A stretch of DNA of 64,000 nt from Terriglobales bacterium. GTDB lineage: Bacteria > Acidobacteriota > Terriglobia > Terriglobales > Acidobacteriaceae. The stretch's first letter is position 1, and each line of letters begins with the position of its first letter. The position numbers and the translations under genes were made by a program. Shown here piece by piece: positions 7,253-50,327 of the stretch. The stretch lies in the NCBI GenBank assembly GCA_025980765.1, contig JAICXB010000010.1, forward strand, positions 1 through 64,000. The letters are read 5' to 3'. Below the pieces are notes generated by a model. That model worked only from the letters and a program-made list of their open reading frames with translations. It was not told where the DNA came from and made no database searches.

Positions 7253-10200
7253 ATGGTCCTGCCTTTTGTCCGTGAGTTGCTCGCGGACGCGGAAAAAGCT
7301 CCTGCCTTTCAGCGTACGGCCTCCCACCTCAAGGGCCGTGCGGGGCGACGGCGTGTCTCCGGACTGACCAATTCTGCAAAAGCGTTGCATCTGCCGCTGC
7401 TGGCCGCGGCTGCGGGGGCGCCGCTGATTGTGATTGTCGAGAGCAATCGCGCGGCTGAGGAGATGCTGCCATCCCTGCAGTCCATGGCAGAGCTTACCGG
7501 TGCCCTGACTCCGAAATCGATTCTGAAACTGCCCGCGCACGACGTGCTGCCGTTTGAGAATCTGTCCCCACACCCTGACATCCAGGAGGAGCGGGCGGCA
7601 GCTCTATGGAAGATTGCCACCGGCGCCGGATCGATTGTGATTGCTCCGGTGGAAGCGGCGTCGATGCGCCTAAATTCCGCCGAGTTCTACGCCAACCTGG
7701 CGCGCGTCGTGCGCCGGGGAGAGACCATCGACATCGATCCCCTGCTCGAGCATCTGCGCTCCGTCGGCTATTCCGGAGCGGACGTTGTGGACATGCCTGG
7801 AGAGTTTGCAGTCCGCGGTGGACTTCTGGATGTATATCCGCCAGAGGTGGACCGTCCGTTGCGCATCGAATTTTTCGGCGATGAGGTTGAGACCATCCGC
7901 AAGTTCGATCCGGGTACGCAACGCTCGGCGGCGCCGGTGGACGAAGCTGTCTTGCTGCCTTTGACGGCAATGCCGGTGGAGGAACGGGTGCTGGGAGTAA
8001 TCCATTCGCGGTTGTCAGGCAAACGCCTGAGCGGCAGCGATAGCGAAGTCGAACAGGCCATGCTCTCAACCGGCGTGACCGTCTTCCCAGGATGGGAATT
8101 CTTCTCGCCCATTGCCGGAGCGGGGCTGCACTTGTTCGATCTGTTGCCCAACGCGCGAGTGATCGTCGACGAGCCCTCGGCCACTTTCGCCGCGCAGGAC
8201 GAATGGTGGAACAAAGTCAACCAGCGCCATGAGCGCAGCGGCGTAGGAGCGCTGGTTCGCCCGGAAGAGATTTACTTCGTTCCCGAGGAGTGGAACCAGC
8301 GGCTCGCGCGTACGCCCGGCATCGAAATGGAACGATTGGGCATCGTGGACGCGCTGAACGACGAAGAGACGTCCGCCGCCGACATCTCCTTCTCCTCGCG
8401 CCTGACCATGCGTTTCCACGGGTCCATACCGGCGATGGTGGATGAAGTAAGAAAACTCTCCGGCCAGGGCAAGCGGGTGATCTTTGCCGTTCCCAATATG
8501 GGCGGAGTCGAGCGGCTGGCCGACATCTTCACTGAATACGCGCTGCCGTTCCGCCTGGGCAGCCGTGCGCCCTCGCCGGGCGGCGAGAGCTATCTCGACG
8601 AGACTTCCTACTTCGCCGACATGACCGCGGCGACCATCGTAAAGGCGTTGCTGCCCGAGGGAGTCGAGCTGACCGAATCCAATCTGGTGCTCTTCGGCGC
8701 GCGCGATCTATTCGACGATTCCGATGTCGTTGCCCAGGCGCCGCTGCGGCCGAAATCAAAGGTATCGGCATTCCTCTCGGATTTTCGCGATCTGGTGGTC
8801 GGCGACTACGTGGTGCACGTCGAACATGGCATCGCGCAGTATCAAGGCCTGAAGGAAATCGCGCAGGGCGAATCCAGCGGCGAGTTCATGCTGCTGGAAT
8901 TTGCCGAGGCGGCGAAACTCTATGTTCCGCTCACCCGCCTCGATCTGATCCAGAAGTATCGATCCACCGAAGGCGCGCGACCGCCGTTGAGTCGGCTCGG
9001 GGGCACACAGTGGGCCAAGACCAAAGCCCGGGTGAAGCAGGCCATGCGCGACATGGCCGACGAGCTGCTCAAGCTCTACGCGCAGCGCAAGATGGCCGAA
9101 GGACACGCTTATCCGGCAGACACGCAGTGGCAGCGCGAATTCGAAGACGCCTTCGATTACAACGAGACTGACGACCAGGCCGCGGCGATTGTAGACATCA
9201 AGCACGACATGGAATCGACGATGCCGATGGACCGTCTTCTTTGCGGCGACGTGGGCTACGGCAAAACCGAAGTCGCCATGCGCGCGGCGTTCAAGGCGGT
9301 GCAGGACAACCGGCAGGTTGCGGTTTTGGCCCCAACCACGGTACTTGCCTTCCAGCATTTCGAAACCTTCAAGCGGCGCTTTGCTGCGTTTCCCATCGGC
9401 ATCGAGATGATCAGCCGCTTCCGCACCGCCCGGCAGCAGAAGGAAATTGTCGAGAAGGTCGAGCAGGGCAAAATCGACATCCTCATCGGCACGCACCGGC
9501 TGCTGTCAAAGGACATCAAATTTCCCGATCTGGGCCTGCTGGTCGTCGATGAAGAACAGCGCTTTGGCGTGCGCCACAAAGAGCGGCTGAAGCAACTCAA
9601 GAAAGAAGTCGATGTGCTGACGATGTCGGCCACGCCCATTCCGCGCACGCTGCACATGTCGCTGGTGGGACTGCGCGACATGAGCGTGATTGAAACCCCA
9701 CCCAAAGATCGCATGGCCATTCAGACGGTGGTGGCGTCATTCGACGACAAACTCATTCGCTCCGCCATCGAGCACGAACTCGAACGCGGCGGCCAGATTT
9801 ATTTCGTTCATAACCGGGTGGACACGATTTACGAAATCGCCGCCAAGATCCAGGAGCTGGTTCCGCGCGCCCGCGTGATTGTCGGACACGGCCAGATGAG
9901 CGAAGGCGAACTGGAAAAGGTGATGCTCAGCTTCATGCGTCACGAAGCCGATGTGCTGGTGGCGACTACGATCATTGAGAACGGTCTCGATATTCCCCTA
10001 TGCAACACCATCCTCATCAATCGCGCCGACCGGCACGGGCTTTCCGAGCTGTATCAATTGCGCGGGCGCGTGGGCAGGTCCAATCGGCGAGCCTACGCCT
10101 ATCTCTTGATCCCGCCCGAGCAGGAGCTAACGCCGATTGCGCGGCGACGGCTGGCCGCGCTGAAGGAGTTCTCCGATCTGGGCGCCGGATTCAAGATCGC

Positions 10201-41600: not shown

Positions 41601-43934
41601 ATGAGCACGTATTCTGGGCGGTTTGCCGGGAGGATGCAATTGCGAGTTGCGGTGATCGGAGGCGGGCCGGGCGGGCTCTACTTCGCTCTTCTGCTGAAGA
41701 AGGCGAATCCGAAGCACGAGATCACGCTCTTCGAACGCAACGGCCCTGACAGCACTTTCGGCTGGGGCGTGGTTTTCTCCGATCAGACGCTGGAGAACTT
41801 TCGCTCCGCCGATGCGCAGAGCTATCAGCAGATCATCGACAACTTCGCCCACTGGGACGACATTGACGTTCACTTCAAAGATGTCGTTATCACTTCAGGC
41901 GGACACGGGTTCAGCGGAATTGCGCGCCAGAAACTGCTGCACATTCTTCAGCGCCGCTGCGCCGAACTGGGAGTCGATCTACGTTTCAACGAAGAGATAG
42001 GCGATGTAACCGATCTTGAGAAATTAGGGATTCAGAATCTGGATCTGGTCGTCGCCGCCGATGGCATCAACAGTTCCATTCGTAAGCAATACGGCGAATT
42101 CTTCCAGCCCGACGTGGAAATCCGGCCGGCAAAGTTCATCTGGCTGGGGACGACTTACAAGTTCAAGGCGTTTACCTTCTACATCGTCGTGAACGAGTGC
42201 GGAGTTTTTCAGGCGCACTGTTATCGCTTCGATGAAAACTACTCCACTTTCATCGTGGAATGCGATGAGCTCTCCTGGCGCAATGCCGGTTTCGACACGC
42301 TGGACGCGGAGCAGACCGTCAGCGCCTGCGAACGCATGTTCGCGCGCTGGCTGGACGGACATCGTCTGCTTTTCAACTCCACCCACCAGCTTCGCTCGCC
42401 GTGGATGAATTTCGTGCGCGTGCGCAATGAGCACTGGTTTCACCAGAACATGGTTCTGCTCGGCGATGCTGCCCATTCCGCACACTTTTCTATCGGTTCC
42501 GGGACCAAGCTGGCAATGGAAGATGCAATTTCACTCTCCTCTGCGCTGAATTCCGAAACGGAACTGAACACTGCGCTTGCGCGTTATGAAAACGAGCGCA
42601 AGACCGAAGCCCTGCGTCTGCAGAACGCGGCGCGCAATTCCATGGAATGGTTTGAGAACGTGCGCCGCTACGTGCATCTGGATCCGGAGCAGTTCACCTA
42701 TAGTCTGCTTACGCGCAGCCAGCGCGTCAGCCACGAGAACCTGCGCATCCGCGATCAGCGATACCTCGAGGGCGTAGAGCGCTGGTTCGCCAGCCGCGCC
42801 TCAGGAGCGAACGCGGAACAAGCAGTGCCGCCGATGTTCACTCCTTTCCAATTACGGGAAATGACGGTCGTAAACCGCGTGGTTGTCTCTCCGATGGACA
42901 TGTATTCGGCCGTCGACGGTACTCCAACCGATTTCCATCTGGTGCATCTCGGCGGCCGCGCGCTGGGGGGGGCCGGGCTGATCATCACCGAGATGACCTG
43001 CATTTCTCCGGAGGCGCGCATCACGCTGGGCTGCACTGGCATGTACAAAGACGAGCATCTGACCGCCTGGAAGCGAATCGTCGAGTTCGTGCACGCGAAC
43101 AGCCGCGCGAAAATCGCCCTGCAGCTTGGACATTCCGGACGCAAAGGCTCGACAAAGCTTTCATGGGAAGGCATCGACGAGCCGCTGGAATCGGGCAACT
43201 GGGAAGTGCTCGCGCCTTCGGCAATTCCTCATGCCGGCTCCATGCACCTACCGCGCGAGATGACGCATGCGGACATGAAAAATGTTATCGATGATTTTGT
43301 CCGCGCTACCCGCATGGGAATCGCGGCCGGGTTCGACATGGTGGAGCTGCACTGCGCCCATGGCTACCTGCTGTCGAGCTTCATCACTCCGCTGGCTAAC
43401 CGGCGCAAGGACGAATACGGCGGAGGCCTGGAGAATCGCCTCCGCTTCCCGCTCGAGGTCTTTCATGCGATGCGCAAAGTTTGGCCGCAGGAAAGACCAA
43501 TGTCGGTGCGCATCTCTGCGACCGATTGGGTACCAGGCGGCGTCGATGCGCCGGAGTCCGTCGAGATCGCACGCGCCTTTCATCGCGCCGGCGCTGATAT
43601 CATTCACGTTTCCACCGGCCAGACCTCGGTGGACGCTCGCCCGCAATATGGACGCATGTATCAGACGCCCTACAGCGATCGCATTCGAAACGAAGCGCAC
43701 ATTCCCACCATCGCGGTCGGTAATATCACCGAGGCTGACCAGGTGAATGCCATCATCGCCGCCGGCCGCGCCGACCTTTGCTCGCTGGCGCGTCCGCACC
43801 TTAGCGACCCGAACTGGACACTACACGCCGCCGCCCAACTTGGTTACACCGAGCAATCCTGGCCGCCGCAGTATCTGACCGGCAAACAACAACTTGAACG
43901 CATGATGCAGCGCGCAAAGGACCAAAAAGCTTGA
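41601..43934 (+). CDS. Anthraniloyl-CoA (2-aminobenzoyl-CoA) monooxygenase/reductase or salicylyl-CoA 5-hydroxylase-type fusion
   Basis: A 777-residue fusion flavoenzyme. Residues about 12-390 are an FAD-dependent aromatic hydroxylase: [17 protein letters not shown] (dinucleotide fold) and [21 protein letters not shown] (second FAD motif). Residues about 412-777 are an FMN-binding old-yellow-enzyme domain: [40 protein letters not shown] and [14 protein letters not shown]. This domain order is the one known from 2-aminobenzoyl-CoA monooxygenase/reductase, which hydroxylates and then reduces the aromatic ring, giving an enamine of 2-amino-5-oxocyclohexenecarboxyl-CoA; databases often call the family bifunctional salicylyl-CoA 5-hydroxylase/oxidoreductase. 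The following ligase, hydratase, dehydrogenase and RidA-like genes support a CoA-thioester aromatic pathway. ATG 41601 is uncertain; ATG 41634 is possible. Anthranilate versus salicylate cannot be decided from sequence. Confidence 0.9.
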
Positions 43935-44719
43935 GATCGAATAATGAGTTGCACGGACGGCACGCCATCATTACCGGTGGCGGCAGGGGAATTGGCGCCG
44001 CAGTCGCAGCAGAATTGGCACAGCGCGGAGCTGACCTCTCGCTGATGGGGCGCAACATGGACCGCCTGCACCGCACCGCAGAGTCCATTCGCGACCGATG
44101 CGGATCGAAAGTGGAAACCCACCGACTCGACGTGACGGAACTCGCAGCCGTAGCTCAGGCGTTCGCGTTTGCGCAGAAATCGCTGGGTCCGGCATACATC
44201 CTGGTCAATAACGCCGGCCAGGCACAAGCCATGCCATTTCCCAAAATGCAACCGGATTTTTGGGAGCGGATGATGGCGGTGAATCTCACCAGCGCCTTCT
44301 ACTGCGCGCAGCAGGTGCTGCCTGCGATGGTCGAGCATGGAAGAGGGCGCGTGGTGAATATCGCCTCCACCGCCGGCCTGAAGGGCTATCCTAAGATTTC
44401 GGCGTATTGCGCTTCCAAGCACGGCTTGGTCGGCCTCACGCGCGCTCTGGCCGTAGAGTATGCCAAATCGGGCGTGACTGTGAACGCTGTCTGTCCTGGC
44501 TATACCGAAACCGAGATGCTCGATCGCGCTGTCAGTGAAGTGGTGGACTCCATGGGCAAGAGCCCCGAAGAAGCGCGCGCACTGCTCACCCGCAAGAATC
44601 CGCAGGGCCGCTTGGTCAAACCAGAAGAAGTCGCCGATGCCGTCGCCTGGCTGTGCTCGCCCGAAGCTTCGGCGATCACCGGGCAAGCGATAGCGGTCGC
44701 TGGCGGAGAAGTGCAGTAA
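43931..44719 (+). CDS. Short-chain dehydrogenase/reductase of the aryl-CoA operon
   Basis: A 262-residue classical SDR. The cofactor motif [12 protein letters not shown] is at about 15-26, NNAG near 95, and the catalytic triad lies in [23 protein letters not shown] (Ser, Tyr, Lys). Arg after the second strand (MGRNMDR) suggests NADP preference. It starts with TTG overlapping the stop of the preceding gene (TTGA), so it is translationally coupled. In CoA-dependent 2-aminobenzoate degradation a ketone/alcohol oxidoreductase is needed in the beta-oxidation-like steps, which fits; the exact substrate is inferred. Confidence 0.9.
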
Positions 44720-44783
44720 GATGAGCCGGGCTCAGCCAGAGAAATCCAGTCTTCGGTGCAATAATAGTGCAGCGGTGACTGAA

Positions 44784-45038
44784 ATGACGATTACATTACC
44801 ACTCGAGCCAAAGAAGGAAGCCAAGCTGATTGCATTGGCTCAGGAACGTGGAGTTTCTGCGAACGATCTTGTGCGTGAGGCCGTCGACAAGATGCTGGAT
44901 GCAACTCCTGATCGCTACGCCAAGCCTAAGAAATCTGCTTTTGGCCTGCTGGCGCAGTATGGTCCCGGTCCCAGTGAAGAAGAAATTGACGCAAACCGCA
45001 GGGAGATGTTCCGCGGCTTCGCCGAGGACCACTTTTGA
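44784..45038 (+). CDS. VapB-like antitoxin inserted in the aryl-CoA operon
   Basis: An 84-residue protein. ATG 44784 is preferred (an in-frame GTG at 44775 is also possible). The N-terminus MTITLPLEPKKEAKLIALA and SANDLVREAVDKMLD resemble a ribbon-helix-helix DNA-binding antitoxin; the C-terminus LLAQYGPGPSEEEIDANRRE plus MFRGF is the toxin-binding part known from VapB relatives. It overlaps the toxin start by four bases (TTGA). It lies between the SDR and enoyl-CoA hydratase genes of a metabolic operon, so the module was probably inserted there. Confidence 0.82.
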   Translation: MTITLPLEPKKEAKLIALAQERGVSANDLVREAVDKMLDATPDRYAKPKKSAFGLLAQYGPGPSEEEIDANRREMFRGFAEDHF

Positions 45039-45442
45039 TCTCCGGGGTAGCCGATACACATACCGCTCTTTGGTATTTGCTCAGGAATCCCCGCCTTTCC
45101 CTCGCAGCTCGAACTTTCATCGAAGATGCCGCACGTGCCGGACAGGCAATTGGACTATCGCCAATAAGCCTGGCGGAGATTGTGTATCTTGTGGAGAAGA
45201 ACCGGCTGCCAATGTCGGCGCTAGAGGAATTGAAGACGGCCTTGGCTGACCCCGACTGTGTGATCACAGAAGCTCCATTTACCGCTGCAGTAGTCGATGC
45301 TATGCGACGGGTACCCCGCTCCGATATTCCAGATCTCCCAGACCGAAATGACGGCAACTGCTATATTCCTAGAGGTGCCCGTTATCAGCCGCGACGGCCG
45401 AATTCGCTCCTCGACTATCAAGACCATTTGGTAACTTTGTGA
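45035..45442 (+). pseudogene. VapC PIN toxin with a C-terminal frameshift
   Basis: The frame from TTG 45035 starts GVADTHTALWYLLRNPRLSL with the first catalytic Asp, then LSPISLAEIVYLVEKNRLP with the Glu, and DIPDLPDR with the third acid. After residue 104 it continues as NDGNCYIPRGARYQPRR, which is not PIN-like. Shifting by one base at 45347 (removing one A from CGAAATGACG) yields MTATAIFLEVPVISRDGRIR and SSTIKTIW with stop at 45432-45434, the normal VapC ending including the SRD aspartate. Thus one inserted A appears to have destroyed the C-terminus. A sequencing error cannot be excluded. If real, the antitoxin would now be without an active toxin. Confidence 0.82.
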
Positions 45443-45487
45443 GGTGGTCGGCTTTGGGCCTCCACAGTTTTCGCATGCACTGACGCT

Positions 45488-45496
45488 TGCTATAGT
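45488..45496 (+). promoter_or_regulatory. Possible extended -10 promoter before the enoyl-CoA hydratase
   Basis: TGC-TATAGT at 45488-45496 resembles an extended -10 element (TGnTATAAT), but the upstream -35 match is poor. It would start transcription about 90 bases before the hydratase gene and could restore expression downstream of the inserted VapBC module. Confidence 0.35.
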
Positions 45497-45595
45497 GCCT
45501 GTCCGGAGCTAGGTCACCGCGCCAGCGCACAACATTGTGGTTCTGAACGCCTTAATCGGAATGTCTTTTTCGTGAGGGTTTCTTAAAAGATATTC

Positions 45596-46405
45596 ATGTC
45601 CGCTCCCCAACACTTTCTGTGGCACGTCGACGGCAATGTCGCGACTATCACCCTCAACCGTCCCGAACGCAAGAACCCACTCACGTTCGATTCGTATCGC
45701 GAACTCACCGAGACTTTTCACCACCTCGTTCATATTCCCGAAATCAAAAGCGTGGTTCTCACCGGCGCAGGCGAGAACTTCTGCTCCGGTGGAGACGTTC
45801 ACGAGATCATTGGCCCATTGGTCGAAATGCGCGAGCACAAGCAGGCTGCGCGCCTGCTCGCATTCACGCGTATGACTGGAGATTTGGTGAAAGCGATACG
45901 CGCCTGTCCTCAGCCTATCATCGCCGCCATTGATGGCATTTGCGCCGGGGCGGGAGCGATTCTGGCTATGGCCAGCGACATTCGCCTTGGCACTCCGCGC
46001 AGCAAAGTCGCATTCTTGTTTGTGAAGGTCGGACTCAGCGGCGCCGATATGGGAGCGTGCGCGATTCTGCCGCGCATCATTGGACAAGGCCGGGCGGCCG
46101 AGTTGCTTTACAGTGGACGCTTCATGTCCTCTGAAGAAGCCGAGCGCTGGGGCTTTTACAATCGCGTGGTTGCGCCCGAGCGCTTACTGGGGGACGCAAT
46201 GCAATTCGCGCGGGAGCTGGCTGACGGACCGTCGTTCGCGCACGCCATGACCAAGCGCTGCCTGCATCGCGAATGGGAGATGAGCATCGATGAGGCTATC
46301 GCCACCGAAGCCGAGGCGCAGGCCATGTGCATGCAGACTGAAGATTTCGCGCGCGCGTATCGCGCATTCGCCGCGAAACAGACACCGAAGTTCGAGGGCA
46401 ACTGA
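45596..46405 (+). CDS. Enoyl-CoA hydratase/isomerase family protein of the aryl-CoA operon
   Basis: A 269-residue crotonase-fold enzyme. The oxyanion-hole segments are [15 protein letters not shown] at about 59-73 and [17 protein letters not shown] at about 117-133; the catalytic-loop region [20 protein letters not shown] at about 140-159 follows. It should hydrate or cleave a CoA-bound ring or enoyl intermediate in the pathway. Its stop overlaps the start of the acyl-CoA dehydrogenase (TGATG), so it is coupled to that gene. The start ATG 45596 has a weak ribosome-binding site (AAAAGAT). Confidence 0.9.
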
Positions 46406-47586
46406 TGCCGGACCGCAGCTTTCTCGCCTGGCCATTCTTCGATGACTCGCATCGGCAGCTCGCAGATGCAATTTCGAAATGGGCGAGGCGCGAAATCAGC
46501 GGAGAGGTTGGCGAAGCTGTCGACCAACAATGTCGCGAGTTTCTCAGCTCGCTTGCATCTGGCGGATGGTTGCGCTATGTCGTCCCAAAACAGTACGGCG
46601 GCGCCACGGAATCGCTGGACGTGCGTTCCGTCTGCCTGATTCGCGATACGCTTGCCTACCACTCCGGTCTGGCCGAGTTTAGCTTTGCCATGCAGGGGCT
46701 AGGTTCAGCTCCGATCACGCTCTTTGGATCCGAGGAACTCAAGCGCAAATACCTGCCCAAAGTCGCTGCCGGAGAGGCAATTGCCGCGTTCGCGATTTCG
46801 GAAGCCGAGGCCGGTTCTGATCTTCGCGCGATGCAAACTACCGCACGTCGCGACGGCGATCACTATGTGATTGACGGCAAGAAGAACTGGATTTCAAATG
46901 CCGGCATTGCCGATTTCTACGTGACTTACTGCCGCTTTCCGGAGGCGGGAGAGAAGGCTTTTGTCGCGCTGCTGGTGGAGGCGTCCGCCCAGGGAATTAC
47001 TGTTTCCGAGCGCATCGAGGTGATTGCGCCACACGTATTGGGCAACGTGATTTTCCACGAGTCTCGCGTGCCCGCATCGGCGCTGATCGGACGAGAAGGC
47101 GATGGCCTGAAGATCGCTTTGGGAACACTCGACATCTTTCGCGCCAGTGTCGGCGCAGCCGCCCTGGGATTCGCCCGACGGGCGCTCGATGAGGCGGTCT
47201 GCTTCGCGCGTGAGCGCCGGCAGTTCGGGCAGGCGCTCTCTGACTTTCAAATCACGCAAGCGAAGTTTGCCGACATGGCGGTCGTGGTCGATACCTCGGC
47301 ACTGCTGGTCTATCGCGCCGCCTGGACGCGCGATGTGCTGATGCAGCCAGTCACGCGCGAGGCGGCGATGGCCAAGCTCTACGCCACAGAATCCGCGCAA
47401 CGCGTGATCGATGAAGCCGTGCAGATTCTGGGAGCGCGCGGCGTAATCGCGGGCTCAATTACGGAACGGCTCTATCGCGAGATTCGCGCGCTGCGCATCT
47501 ATGAGGGCGCCAGCGAGATTCAAAAGCTAATCATCGCCGGCCAAGTTCTTAAGGCCGCGGCCGCTGGAGATGAACATGCGCGCTGA
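46405..47586 (+). CDS. Acyl-CoA dehydrogenase of the aryl-CoA operon
   Basis: A 393-residue FAD-dependent dehydrogenase. The signature AFAISEAEAGSDLRAMQTTA is at about 130-149, WISNAGIADFYVTYCR at about 164-179 and RRQFGQALSDFQITQAKFAD at about 271-290. The catalytic base is in YEGASEIQKLIIAG near the C-terminus. Its N-terminus overlaps the hydratase stop and its C-terminus overlaps the ligase by 11 bases, so the cluster is tightly coupled. In the pathway it may oxidise a cyclohexane/ene-carboxyl-CoA or a ring-opened dicarboxylyl-CoA, which is inference. Confidence 0.92.
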   Translation: MPDRSFLAWPFFDDSHRQLADAISKWARREISGEVGEAVDQQCREFLSSLASGGWLRYVVPKQYGGATESLDVRSVCLIRDTLAYHSGLAEFSFAMQGLGSAPITLFGSEELKRKYLPKVAAGEAIAAFAISEAEAGSDLRAMQTTARRDGDHYVIDGKKNWISNAGIADFYVTYCRFPEAGEKAFVALLVEASAQGITVSERIEVIAPHVLGNVIFHESRVPASALIGREGDGLKIALGTLDIFRASVGAAALGFARRALDEAVCFARERRQFGQALSDFQITQAKFADMAVVVDTSALLVYRAAWTRDVLMQPVTREAAMAKLYATESAQRVIDEAVQILGARGVIAGSITERLYREIRALRIYEGASEIQKLIIAGQVLKAAAAGDEHAR

Positions 47587-49276
47587 GATCCAGTCTCATC
47601 GCTACACCGCGCATGTGGACACATTTTGTGCCGATCACATGCCTCGAACGGAGCAGCTCCCAAAGATATTTCGCGATTTGCCCGAGTACGCGTGCCCGGA
47701 ACGGGTGAACTGCGCCGCAGAGTTGCTCGACCGCATCGTGGAGAATGGCGGCGGAGAGCGCACTGCGTTCATCCATGAATCGGGCAGGTGGACTTATCGT
47801 CGCATGCTGGAAACAGCAAATCGCATCGCGCATGTCCTCATTGACGATCTCGGGCTGGTGACTGGAAACCGAGTGCTGTTGCGCGGGCCGAATCATCCCA
47901 TGCTGGTGGCCTGCTGGTTTGGCGTAATCAAGGCCGGAGGAATCGCGGTCACAACTGCCTGCCTGCTGCGCTGCCGCGAACTCCTTTCCATCGCCGACGC
48001 AGCACAGATTCGGCTGGCGCTCTGCGACGCGCGCTATGCCGACGACTGCGAAGAGGCGTTCTCGCGCCACGCCGATGGCACTCCGCGCCAGGAAGCGACG
48101 GTCGTTCGTTTCAACACCAGTGCGGGAGAGAGCGAACAGCAGATCCCTCACTACGCTCGGGATAACAAATTCGGGTCGCTTGAATCACTGATGGGCACGA
48201 AGTCGCCAGATTTCCCGAATTGCGACACCTCATGCGAGGATGTCGCGATTCTCGCCTTCACCTCCGGCAGTACCGGACGCGGCAAAGGCACGCTGCACAC
48301 GCATCGCGATATCGTGGCCTCCGCCGATTGCTTTCCCCGCCACGCGCTCTGTCCATTGCCCGAGGATATTTTCATTGGTACGCCGCCGCTGGCATTCACT
48401 TATGCTCTTGGCGGCCTGCTGATTTTTCCTATGCGCAGCGGCGCCGCCACCGTGCTGCTCGAACAGACCAGCCCGAAGCACTTGCTGGAAGGCATCGCCC
48501 GACATCGCGCGACGGTTTGCTTTACAGCCCCGACCGCCTATCGAGCGATGCTTAAGGAACTCACGCGAGAGCAGACGGCGAGCCTGCGCAAATGCGTCTC
48601 CGCGGGAGAAACGCTGCCTCTGTCGACCTTCGAAGCGTGGGAGCAAGCGACCGCATTGAAGATCATCGATGGCATCGGCTCAACCGAGATGCTGCACATC
48701 TTTATCAGCGCCCCGGAAGATGAGATTCGTCCCGGCGCAACCGGCAAGCCACTGCGCGGCTACGAAGCCAAGATCCTTCGCGCCGACGGCAGCGATGCCG
48801 ATTGCGGAGAAGTGGGCCGGCTTGCCGTGCGCGGCATCACCGGCTGCAAATATCTCGACAATGAAGAGGAGCAGCGGAAATACGTGCAGAACGGCTGGAA
48901 CCTGACCGGCGATTCCTTCCGCATGGACGAAGACGGCTACTTCTGGTTTCAGGCGCGAACCGATGATCTGATCGTCAGCTCCGGTTACAACATTTCTGGG
49001 ATCGAGATTGAGAACGTGCTGCTTGAGCATCCGGCGGTGCAGGAATGCGCGGTGATCGGAGTTGCCAATAATGATCGCGGGCAAATTGTGAAAGCGTTCA
49101 TCGTCACCAGGCCGGAGCATGCAGCCTGCGACGCTCTGAAAAAAGAGCTCCAGGATTTTGTGAAGGCGCAGATTGCACCGTACAAGTATCCCCGCGCCCT
49201 GGAGTTCGTGTCCTCGCTGCCACGCACCAATACGGGAAAGTTGCAACGTTATCAGCTCCGGGAGCAATCGCGATGA
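47576..49276 (+). CDS. Aryl-CoA ligase (benzoate/2-aminobenzoate-CoA ligase family)
   Basis: A 566-residue AMP-forming ligase that should activate an aromatic acid to its CoA thioester. ATG 47576 is preferred to 47570 because GGAG lies seven bases upstream. The P-loop-like LAFTSGSTGRGKGTLHTHRD is at about 225-244, IDGIGSTEMLHIFIS at about 365 and LTGDSFRMDEDGYFWFQART at about 443; the C-terminal Lys is in SSLPRTNTGKLQRYQL. Similarity over the N-terminal half (ELLDRIVENGGGERTAFI) is of benzoate-CoA-ligase type. With the monooxygenase this points to anthranilate or salicylate activation. It overlaps both neighbours. Confidence 0.9.
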   Translation: MRAEIQSHRYTAHVDTFCADHMPRTEQLPKIFRDLPEYACPERVNCAAELLDRIVENGGGERTAFIHESGRWTYRRMLETANRIAHVLIDDLGLVTGNRVLLRGPNHPMLVACWFGVIKAGGIAVTTACLLRCRELLSIADAAQIRLALCDARYADDCEEAFSRHADGTPRQEATVVRFNTSAGESEQQIPHYARDNKFGSLESLMGTKSPDFPNCDTSCEDVAILAFTSGSTGRGKGTLHTHRDIVASADCFPRHALCPLPEDIFIGTPPLAFTYALGGLLIFPMRSGAATVLLEQTSPKHLLEGIARHRATVCFTAPTAYRAMLKELTREQTASLRKCVSAGETLPLSTFEAWEQATALKIIDGIGSTEMLHIFISAPEDEIRPGATGKPLRGYEAKILRADGSDADCGEVGRLAVRGITGCKYLDNEEEQRKYVQNGWNLTGDSFRMDEDGYFWFQARTDDLIVSSGYNISGIEIENVLLEHPAVQECAVIGVANNDRGQIVKAFIVTRPEHAACDALKKELQDFVKAQIAPYKYPRALEFVSSLPRTNTGKLQRYQLREQSR

Positions 49277-49692
49277 GCGAATTGCCTGAACCGGTGAATC
49301 CATCGGCATGGCCGCGACCCAGCGGCTACTCCAATGCGGTGGTCGCGCAAGGCAACGTGATCGCCATCGCCGGCCAGATCGGCTGGGACCCAATCACACA
49401 GAAGCTTGTTTCCGACGATTTTGTGCAGCAGAGTCGTCAGGCGCTCGCGAACCTTGTCACGGCTCTCGAAGCTGCTGGCGCAAAAGCTGAGCACCTCATT
49501 CGCCTGACCTGGTACATCACCGATCGCGAAGCCTACGTCGCAAATAAAAAACAAATTGGCGAAGCTTATCGCCAGGAGATTGGGAACCACTATCCGGCGA
49601 TGTCGGTGGTAATCGTTGCCGGCCTGGTCGAAGAAGGCGCGAAGGTAGAGATTGAGGCGACCGCGGTAATTCCGCTAAAACCATCCGCGTAG
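49273..49692 (+). CDS. RidA/YjgF-family protein, atypical: catalytic Arg replaced
   Basis: A 139-residue Rid-family trimeric-fold protein, starting ATG overlapping the ligase stop (ATGA). Family landmarks include YSNAVVAQGNVIAIAGQIGWD, QSRQALANLVTALEAAGAKA and YPAMSVVIVAGLVEEGAKVEIEA. In standard imine/enamine deaminases the loop is (Y/F)PARS; here the Arg is Met (PAMS), so the typical catalytic Arg is missing. The 2-aminobenzoyl-CoA monooxygenase/reductase product is an enamine, so a Rid-like deaminase or chaperone is chemically sensible, but the altered site argues for a variant mechanism. This role is inference. Confidence 0.88.
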   Translation: MSELPEPVNPSAWPRPSGYSNAVVAQGNVIAIAGQIGWDPITQKLVSDDFVQQSRQALANLVTALEAAGAKAEHLIRLTWYITDREAYVANKKQIGEAYRQEIGNHYPAMSVVIVAGLVEEGAKVEIEATAVIPLKPSA

Positions 49693-49770: not shown

Positions 49771-50277
49771 TCAAAACTCGCGCTTCGCCGCTGTTTGCTC
49801 TTGCCCCAGGCGGCCGGCGGCAATGTCGGCCATAAAGTAGTTCTCGCCTTTTATCGGAGAGCCGGCCAGGCGACGCATGATCGCAATTTGTCCTACATGC
49901 GTCAGAGCGTCAGCGACAGGGCCTTGAAAGAGTTTCTCCAGGGGAGCGTGCAGTGGCTGACCGGAAATCAAATATTCATCGAAAGCCGCCAGGCCATCGT
50001 GGAAGCGCATTACATCTTCATTCCACCTCTGCGGTTTCGAATCGCGCCATTTTGCTTCGCCTTTTGCGATCGACAGCGCCCAGTCCAGCAGGTCGCCGAT
50101 ATGACAAAGAATTTCGCCGGCTGAGCGGCATCCACCTCCACAACTGAACGCCGAGAAGTTTTCTGGCGCTCCGCGCAGCGCCTTTCCGCCGCGATAGGCA
50201 AGTGTGGCGACTGTATGTCTCAGGAGCTGGCGGGCAATATCTGGAATGGAAGCTGAACTGGCTGGGGTTGTGGTCAT
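49771..50277 (-). CDS. DinB-family protein
   Basis: A 168-residue four-helix protein of the DinB/YfiT-like superfamily. Family-like features are the histidines of the metal site in GEILCHIGDLLDWAL and DALTHVGQIAIMRRLAG, with a third possible ligand near the N-terminal helix (QLLRHTVATL). The C-terminus GENYFMADIAAGRLG is typical. These enzymes include thiol-dependent S-transferases; the reaction here is unknown. ATG 50277 is preferred to the TTG at 50283. It is convergent with the aryl-CoA operon and probably unrelated to it. Confidence 0.82.
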   Translation of the reverse strand: MTTTPASSASIPDIARQLLRHTVATLAYRGGKALRGAPENFSAFSCGGGCRSAGEILCHIGDLLDWALSIAKGEAKWRDSKPQRWNEDVMRFHDGLAAFDEYLISGQPLHAPLEKLFQGPVADALTHVGQIAIMRRLAGSPIKGENYFMADIAAGRLGQEQTAAKREF

Positions 50278-50327
50278 GAGCAAAGCATTTTAGTGGAGTC
50301 CGGAACCCTCGCCCATAATGCGTTTCC

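Follow-up and report, generated by a model that had tools for sequence, protein, structure and literature searches.

A predicted coenzyme A-dependent anthranilate operon with an arginine-less Rid-family protein in a Terriglobales bacterium

Positions 1 to 64,000 of contig JAICXB010000010.1 of a Terriglobales bacterium (assembly GCA_025980765.1), hereafter the window, were analysed. Between nt 41601 and 49692 the + strand carries, in this order, genes for a monooxygenase-reductase fusion, a short-chain dehydrogenase/reductase (SDR), a ribbon-helix-helix (RHH) antitoxin-like protein, a PIN-domain protein, a crotonase, an acyl-coenzyme A (CoA) dehydrogenase, a ligase and a Rid-family protein, confirming the gene order and one-strand layout of an original prediction made from the sequence. 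The existence of the operon is confirmed, and none of the six catabolic genes is broken: all six frames were open, with G+C contents at third codon positions (GC3) of 0.64 to 0.71 and translational overlaps. Overlaps between neighbouring genes had been put at 4 to 11 bases but measured 4, 4, 1, 17 and 4 bases, and gaps of 1 and 153 bases were located upstream of the antitoxin-like gene and the crotonase gene, respectively. No promoter or terminator signal above the level of shuffles was detected at the operon. The evidence presented below makes it likely that these genes are a probably horizontally acquired set of the abm (2-aminobenzoyl-CoA) type for aerobic anthranilate breakdown via CoA esters, by the steps proposed below.

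The first gene (nt 41601–43934) encoded a predicted anthraniloyl-CoA (2-aminobenzoyl-CoA) monooxygenase/reductase, of which the N-terminal part was a flavin adenine dinucleotide (FAD) monooxygenase (FAD_binding_3, PF01494) and the C-terminal part an old-yellow-enzyme reductase (Oxidored_FMN, PF00724). It matched NF006101, "bifunctional salicylyl-CoA 5-hydroxylase/oxidoreductase", with 1264 bits (curated cut-off 1078) from residue 14 onward; because homologues aligned from about residue 13, translation may in fact begin at an ATG at 41634. The SDR (nt 43931–44719, TTG start; PF00106, adh_short), which scored 207 bits against BadH (TIGR03206; below the cut-off of 431), is predicted to act on a ring carbonyl or hydroxyl of a CoA ester. 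The crotonase-superfamily enzyme (nt 45596–46405; ECH_1) scored 460 bits against NF006107, over the cut-off of 330, and the acyl-CoA dehydrogenase (nt 46405–47586; PF00441, PF02770 and PF02771) had 22 NCBIfam matches, none above its own cut-off. The aryl-CoA ligase (nt 47570–49276; AMP-binding), a predicted anthranilate-CoA ligase, had as its top PDB sequence match the anthranilate-CoA ligase 4wv3 (E = 2.8e-87, residues 220–566), followed by benzoate-CoA ligases; against TIGR02262 it scored 355 bits, slightly under the cut-off of 375. The Rid-family protein (nt 49273–49692) matched PF01042 (Ribonuc_L-PSP) with 92 bits. A 170-amino-acid open reading frame adjoining the operon on the - strand (nt 49771–50283) had no match in Pfam or NCBIfam.

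In tblastn searches, the fusion matched 95 plasmid records (E<=1e-100) and 18 of 396 genomes of its own phylum (E<=1e-150), its own genome counted in. A tblastn map was drawn for 54 loci (L023 to L076), comprising 21 of the plasmid records, all 16 loci detected in GTDB contigs and the 17 other fusion-bearing genomes of the phylum; five of the 21 plasmid records had no annotation in the fetched stretch, and some of the loci end at a contig edge. The pathway crotonase (>200 bits) was present in 30 of the 54 loci, 29 of which had a Rid gene: 26 as full frames within the stretch, two as an annotated RidA truncated where the stretch stops (L065 and L074), and one just outside (L059, frame G326:C16:140584-140961). 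In the thirtieth, L032, no Rid gene was found within its 12.9 kb. The gene order of the operon recurred, in some cases with extra genes, in Thalassospira marina, Phyllobacterium and Ruegeria pomeroyi (L023, L024 and L025), in Deinococcus, in three Acidobacteria metagenome-assembled genomes (MAGs; L029–L031) and in a Fraserbacteria MAG (L044); within the phylum of the window it frequently differed. L023 to L025 share both set and order with the window (fusion, SDR, optional MarR, crotonase, dehydrogenase, ligase, Rid), which has a toxin-antitoxin pair instead of MarR; the L023 run contains extra kynU/kynA and thioesterase genes and that of L025 an extra cupin gene. Recurrence in distant phyla places this arrangement far outside what chance would produce, and the coherent CoA-dependent pathway originally proposed is borne out. 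The operon is of a known, widespread CoA-dependent (abm-type) kind and ordinary in itself, differing from the abm pathway of Azoarcus evansii by the pair inside it. The earlier remark that no transporter is visible holds locally; several relatives have branched-chain-type ATP-binding cassette (ABC) transporter genes close to the operon.

The Rid gene counts among the core genes of the pathway. A profile built from 31 Rid proteins of the loci matched, at E<=1e-28, 42 of the 396 phylum genomes, including all 18 with the fusion as against 24 of the 378 others (Fisher 6e-20). Seven of the 18 had contributed rows to the profile; among profile-independent genomes the Rid was present in 11/11 with the fusion versus 24/378 fusion-negative ones (Fisher 6e-13). 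The fusion cut-off was strict, since six of the 24 fusion-negative Rid genomes had a fusion-like frame of 46–53% identity in the same stretch (L133, L136, L137, L140, L148 and L150). The pathway crotonase (>=48% identity) was found in 29 of 36 new Rid stretches from 35 genomes. The original prediction had set homologous operons routinely without the RidA gene against its claim that the Rid belongs to the pathway; the comparison found the gene in nearly all of them, as counted above, and the claim survived.

As far as gene neighbourhoods can tell, anthranilate is the best-supported substrate. Anthranilate is a product of tryptophan and indole, and kynureninase (KynU), tryptophan dioxygenase (TDO) and isatin hydrolase are enzymes on the routes to it; anthranilate is favoured because these genes neighbour the operon in relatives. 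They occurred near the fusion in 14 of the 54 loci, with KynU/TDO in nine (a KynU-like match of 21% identity in L056 was left out) and isatin hydrolase in five, and KynU or TDO in 14 of the 36 further Rid-centred stretches. In L044, two genes for thiamine pyrophosphate (TPP) enzymes and one for isatin hydrolase, 72%, 63% and 60% identical, respectively, to those of the genome analysed here, abut the operon (nt 8065–9920). In the latter genome, contig C12 (L080, nt 164–2223) carries an isatin hydrolase A homologue (PDB match 5nnb, E = 5e-101) beside two sulfopyruvate-decarboxylase-like TPP subunits, a candidate isatinate decarboxylase. Across the 396 genomes, isatin hydrolase co-occurred significantly with the Rid type (7/42 versus 7/354, p = 2e-4; 9e-4 with the own genome excluded), and the case for isatin as the anthranilate source in this genome is suggestive. 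The tryptophan-kynurenine route was not adopted as that source, its homologues being weak and below the NCBIfam cut-offs (KynU-like, 155 bits against 246; TDO-like, 124 bits against 391). This weakness tells against anthranilate, as do the non-significant co-occurrence of isatin hydrolase with the monooxygenase (2/18 versus 12/378, p = 0.13), the failure to find isatin hydrolase in the genomes of the three nearest relatives, and the report that Cupriavidus metallidurans CH34, whose annotation includes abm genes, grew on salicylate and not on anthranilate (PMC8879955). Anthranilate use through a CoA cluster of this type was reported for an Arthrobacter, with two anthranilate-CoA ligases assayed (PMC3534580), and the 2-aminobenzoyl-CoA cluster was called vital for anthranilate use by the authors describing an indole-degrading Cupriavidus (PMC6221969).

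The Rid protein of the operon had Met110 at the place of the essential RidA Arg105, as aligned with the Arg of PDB chains 2dyy, 2b33 and 1oni. Of the 31 Rid proteins of the loci, 29 had Met and 2 had Ile at this position; of those of the 36 new loci, read by eye, 35 had Met and 1 had Thr. Arg was thus present in 0 of 67 sequences, the window's included. The missing Arg rules out a canonical RidA identity, and the designation "RidA-type deaminase" could not be retained, because that Arg goes with activity in the tested Rid deaminases (PMC8113886). The loss is not confined to this Rid type, since among the other three Rid proteins of the genome L002 has Thr there (L001 and L004 have Arg); the genome carries an Arg-bearing RidA on contig C6. 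Glu126, the equivalent of catalytic Glu120, was invariant in 31/31 Rid proteins. In RidA the Arg salt-bridges the ligand's carboxylate and a Glu lies close to the ligand carbonyl, and the role of Glu126 is read from that of E180 in the Arabidopsis protein (PMC4960622). The structural model (predicted local distance difference test score, pLDDT, 88) had a Rid fold, and the 50 Foldseek matches listed were Rid/YjgF-type structures. The 2-aminomuconate deaminase AmnE and the 3-aminoacrylate deaminase RutC are likewise Rid proteins dedicated to catabolic enamine hydrolysis, and the substrate of RutC is a beta-enamine, as predicted for the Rid of the window; Arg is kept in both (Arg117 and Arg104, respectively; PMC6742747; PMC8113886), in contrast to Met110 here.

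Both hydratase glutamates, Glu144/Glu164 of the rat enzyme, were missing in 31/31 crotonases (the window's and 30 relatives'). Judged by its residues, the protein would not be a hydratase, and "enoyl-CoA hydratase", the name used in the original prediction and spread by annotation, is in doubt. Asp151, also invariant in 31/31, aligned with an Asp of 3g64 and 6slb/6sl9, a likeness to PaaG-type crotonases (6slb is presumably a Thermus PaaG); the resemblance was general only (147 bits to 6slb), and the E. coli 1,2-epoxyphenylacetyl-CoA isomerase (4fzw) was among the matches (E = 2e-41). The enzyme is probably an isomerase or a ring-opening (C-C) hydrolase. It is a candidate for the latter because the pathway needs ring opening and the other operon genes offer none, so that the earlier statement that no ring-opening hydrolase is visible no longer holds. 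No argument from fold was made, since the model was poor (pLDDT 68).

Between the SDR and crotonase genes, where a MarR gene was found in 14 of the 30 crotonase-bearing loci and in the three nearest relatives (L029–L031), the window has the RHH antitoxin-like gene (nt 44721–45038; 21 bits to the RelB-like NF048017, below the cut-off of 50; no Pfam match) and the PIN-domain toxin gene (nt 45035–45442; PF01850, 24 bits, residues 6–95). The pair has a G+C content of 0.54 versus 0.57–0.61 for the six catabolic genes, and the toxin-antitoxin unit may begin at an internal ATG at 44784. The PIN reading frame is interrupted short of its end and, by eye, the C-terminal part continues in another frame (nt 45294–45434), a frameshift lying either in the assembly or in the genome itself. 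Of the embedded toxin-antitoxin module first described, the overlap of the two genes therefore stands but an intact type II (RHH/PIN) pair does not, the toxin frame being broken. This PIN match was the lowest-scoring of 34 in the genome. No MarR of that type was found in the genome, which is 84% complete, with a query that detects it in the genomes of the three relatives, and the slot in the window held no MarR remnant; a match of E = 2e-4 was discarded as an out-of-frame, Arg-rich reading of L029. A decayed toxin-antitoxin pair appears to have taken the place of the MarR gene. As an observation apart, 34 PIN-domain matches in a genome of 3.5 Mb look like a heavy toxin-antitoxin load.

The fusion was 74% identical to the copies of the three Acidobacteria MAGs and 65% to that of a Gemmatirosa plasmid, with which it grouped in a maximum-likelihood tree of 53 fusion proteins. 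It sat in a clade of mostly proteobacterial rows, apart from all but one other phylum genome in the tree, and the 18 fusion-bearing genomes included none from the family of the window besides its own. Horizontal transfer, which fits both the tree placement and the lack of a second genome of the family among these 18, was probably the way in which the operon was acquired.

In the proposed pathway, anthranilate would be converted by the ligase to anthraniloyl-CoA, the predicted substrate of the monooxygenase/reductase; both steps are modelled on homologous enzymes characterised elsewhere. The Rid protein would then hydrolyse the resulting enamine to a 2-oxo compound and ammonia by means of its conserved Glu. 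The SDR, crotonase and acyl-CoA dehydrogenase would work on the resulting beta-keto cyclohexane ester, and of these the crotonase is the best candidate to open the ring by hydrolysis; the product, a pimelyl-CoA-type chain, would enter beta-oxidation. Conservation shows all four of these proteins (Rid, SDR, crotonase and dehydrogenase) to belong to the pathway, and the role given to each is what we infer for it. A CoA ester, possibly cyclohexanedione-carboxyl-CoA, was found only in anthranilate-grown Arthrobacter (PMC3534580); as this is the product expected of the Rid step, deamination may take place in vivo, whatever its mechanism.

Were the operon one for salicylate, salicylyl-CoA would be hydroxylated to gentisyl-CoA and broken down through gentisate, as the NCBIfam name of the fusion family implies. 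The original prediction had left anthranilate and salicylate side by side; the neighbouring genes of relatives, which lead to anthranilate, uphold the former, and the layout speaks against the latter. No tblastn match to gentisate dioxygenase or fumarylacetoacetate hydrolase (FAH)-type hydrolase (E<=1e-8, half the query) was found in the 30 kb around the operon (window 30001–60000). Both enzymes occur near the fusion in five loci, of Cupriavidus (L064) and Novosphingobium (L038, L040, L041 and L068), which share the fused monooxygenase-reductase family with the window; there, in the layout to be expected for salicylate, they replace the SDR, crotonase, dehydrogenase and Rid type of the operon, all of which are absent. 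A different Rid, likewise without Arg at that position, lies about 6 kb away in three of the five. In the fusion tree the gentisate type lies within a clade where the crotonase type abounds and has to have arisen twice. Even the gentisate type need not be for salicylate, since L040 has an isatin hydrolase. A salicylate substrate is very improbable and was dropped as the principal reading on this evidence of layout and neighbouring genes; the name "salicylyl-CoA 5-hydroxylase", spread by annotation, is in doubt for an enzyme that often stands beside anthranilate-forming genes. Hardly more probable is that the acquired cluster, its regulator lost to the toxin-antitoxin insertion, is decaying or silent and out of use. 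The absence of MarR from slot and genome, the frameshifted PIN gene and the lack of a second genome of the same family among the 18 of 396 would agree with this, but the open catabolic frames, their GC3 and their translational overlaps would not.

With the anthranilate pathway retained, two readings of the Rid protein have to be weighed. Most likely, in our view, it hydrolyses an enamine on a CoA thioester: because the carboxylate bound by Arg105 in RidA is a thioester in the predicted substrate, no Arg would be needed, the Glu still being required. The broader proposition that the Rid proteins of these operons are true enamine hydrolases without Arg, acting on a beta-enamino acyl-CoA without a free carboxylate, is held tentatively, with a little less than even confidence. 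It has to contend with reports that Arg-less Rid proteins had no detectable deaminase activity and that RutC R104A was dead on a beta-enamino acid (PMC8113886), and with the chance that the enamine may hydrolyse unaided. Less probable, and on balance unlikely, is that the Rid is not a deaminase at all, the enamine being hydrolysed alone or in the active site of another enzyme while the Arg-less Rid serves in tautomerisation, in ring opening, or in binding or protecting a reactive CoA ester. The absence of Arg from all 67 sequences and the inactivity of Arg-less Rid4-7 proteins as deaminases (PMC8113886; PMC4433059) are in keeping with such a role; the invariance of Glu126, however, would be odd had hydrolysis been dropped, and the Rid type is missing from the five gentisate-type loci, in which the ring is expected to remain aromatic and no enamine to be formed. 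If enamine hydrolysis without Arg proves true, the rule "no Arg, no deaminase" describes only the substrates tried, and this would be, to our knowledge, the first known activity for an Arg-less Rid protein. The operon gives such a protein a defined pathway and a predicted substrate, and its phyletic pattern is strict; what Arg-less Rid proteins do can therefore be tested directly. In text searches of the literature combining Rid/deaminase with pathway terms, no paper that was read placed a Rid gene in this pathway, a result that does not exclude a link in print; roles of YjgF/RidA in aromatic catabolism have been proposed (PMC6449761), Rid genes in catabolic operons noted (PMC8113886), and "RidA" mentioned in the different context of an amino-acid-oxidase cluster (PMC5053998).

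Other combinations of these genes were also observed on plasmids. Three actinobacterial plasmids (L069, L070 and L071) carry the fusion, an Arg-less Rid and a short cupin, with no crotonase match in the stretch; L071 additionally has a FAH-type hydrolase, and a different lower pathway is likely in these loci. A haloarchaeal version on a Haladaptatus plasmid (L072) combines, within about 12 kb, the fusion (42% identity), a benzoate-CoA-ligase-like protein and a RidA-family protein.

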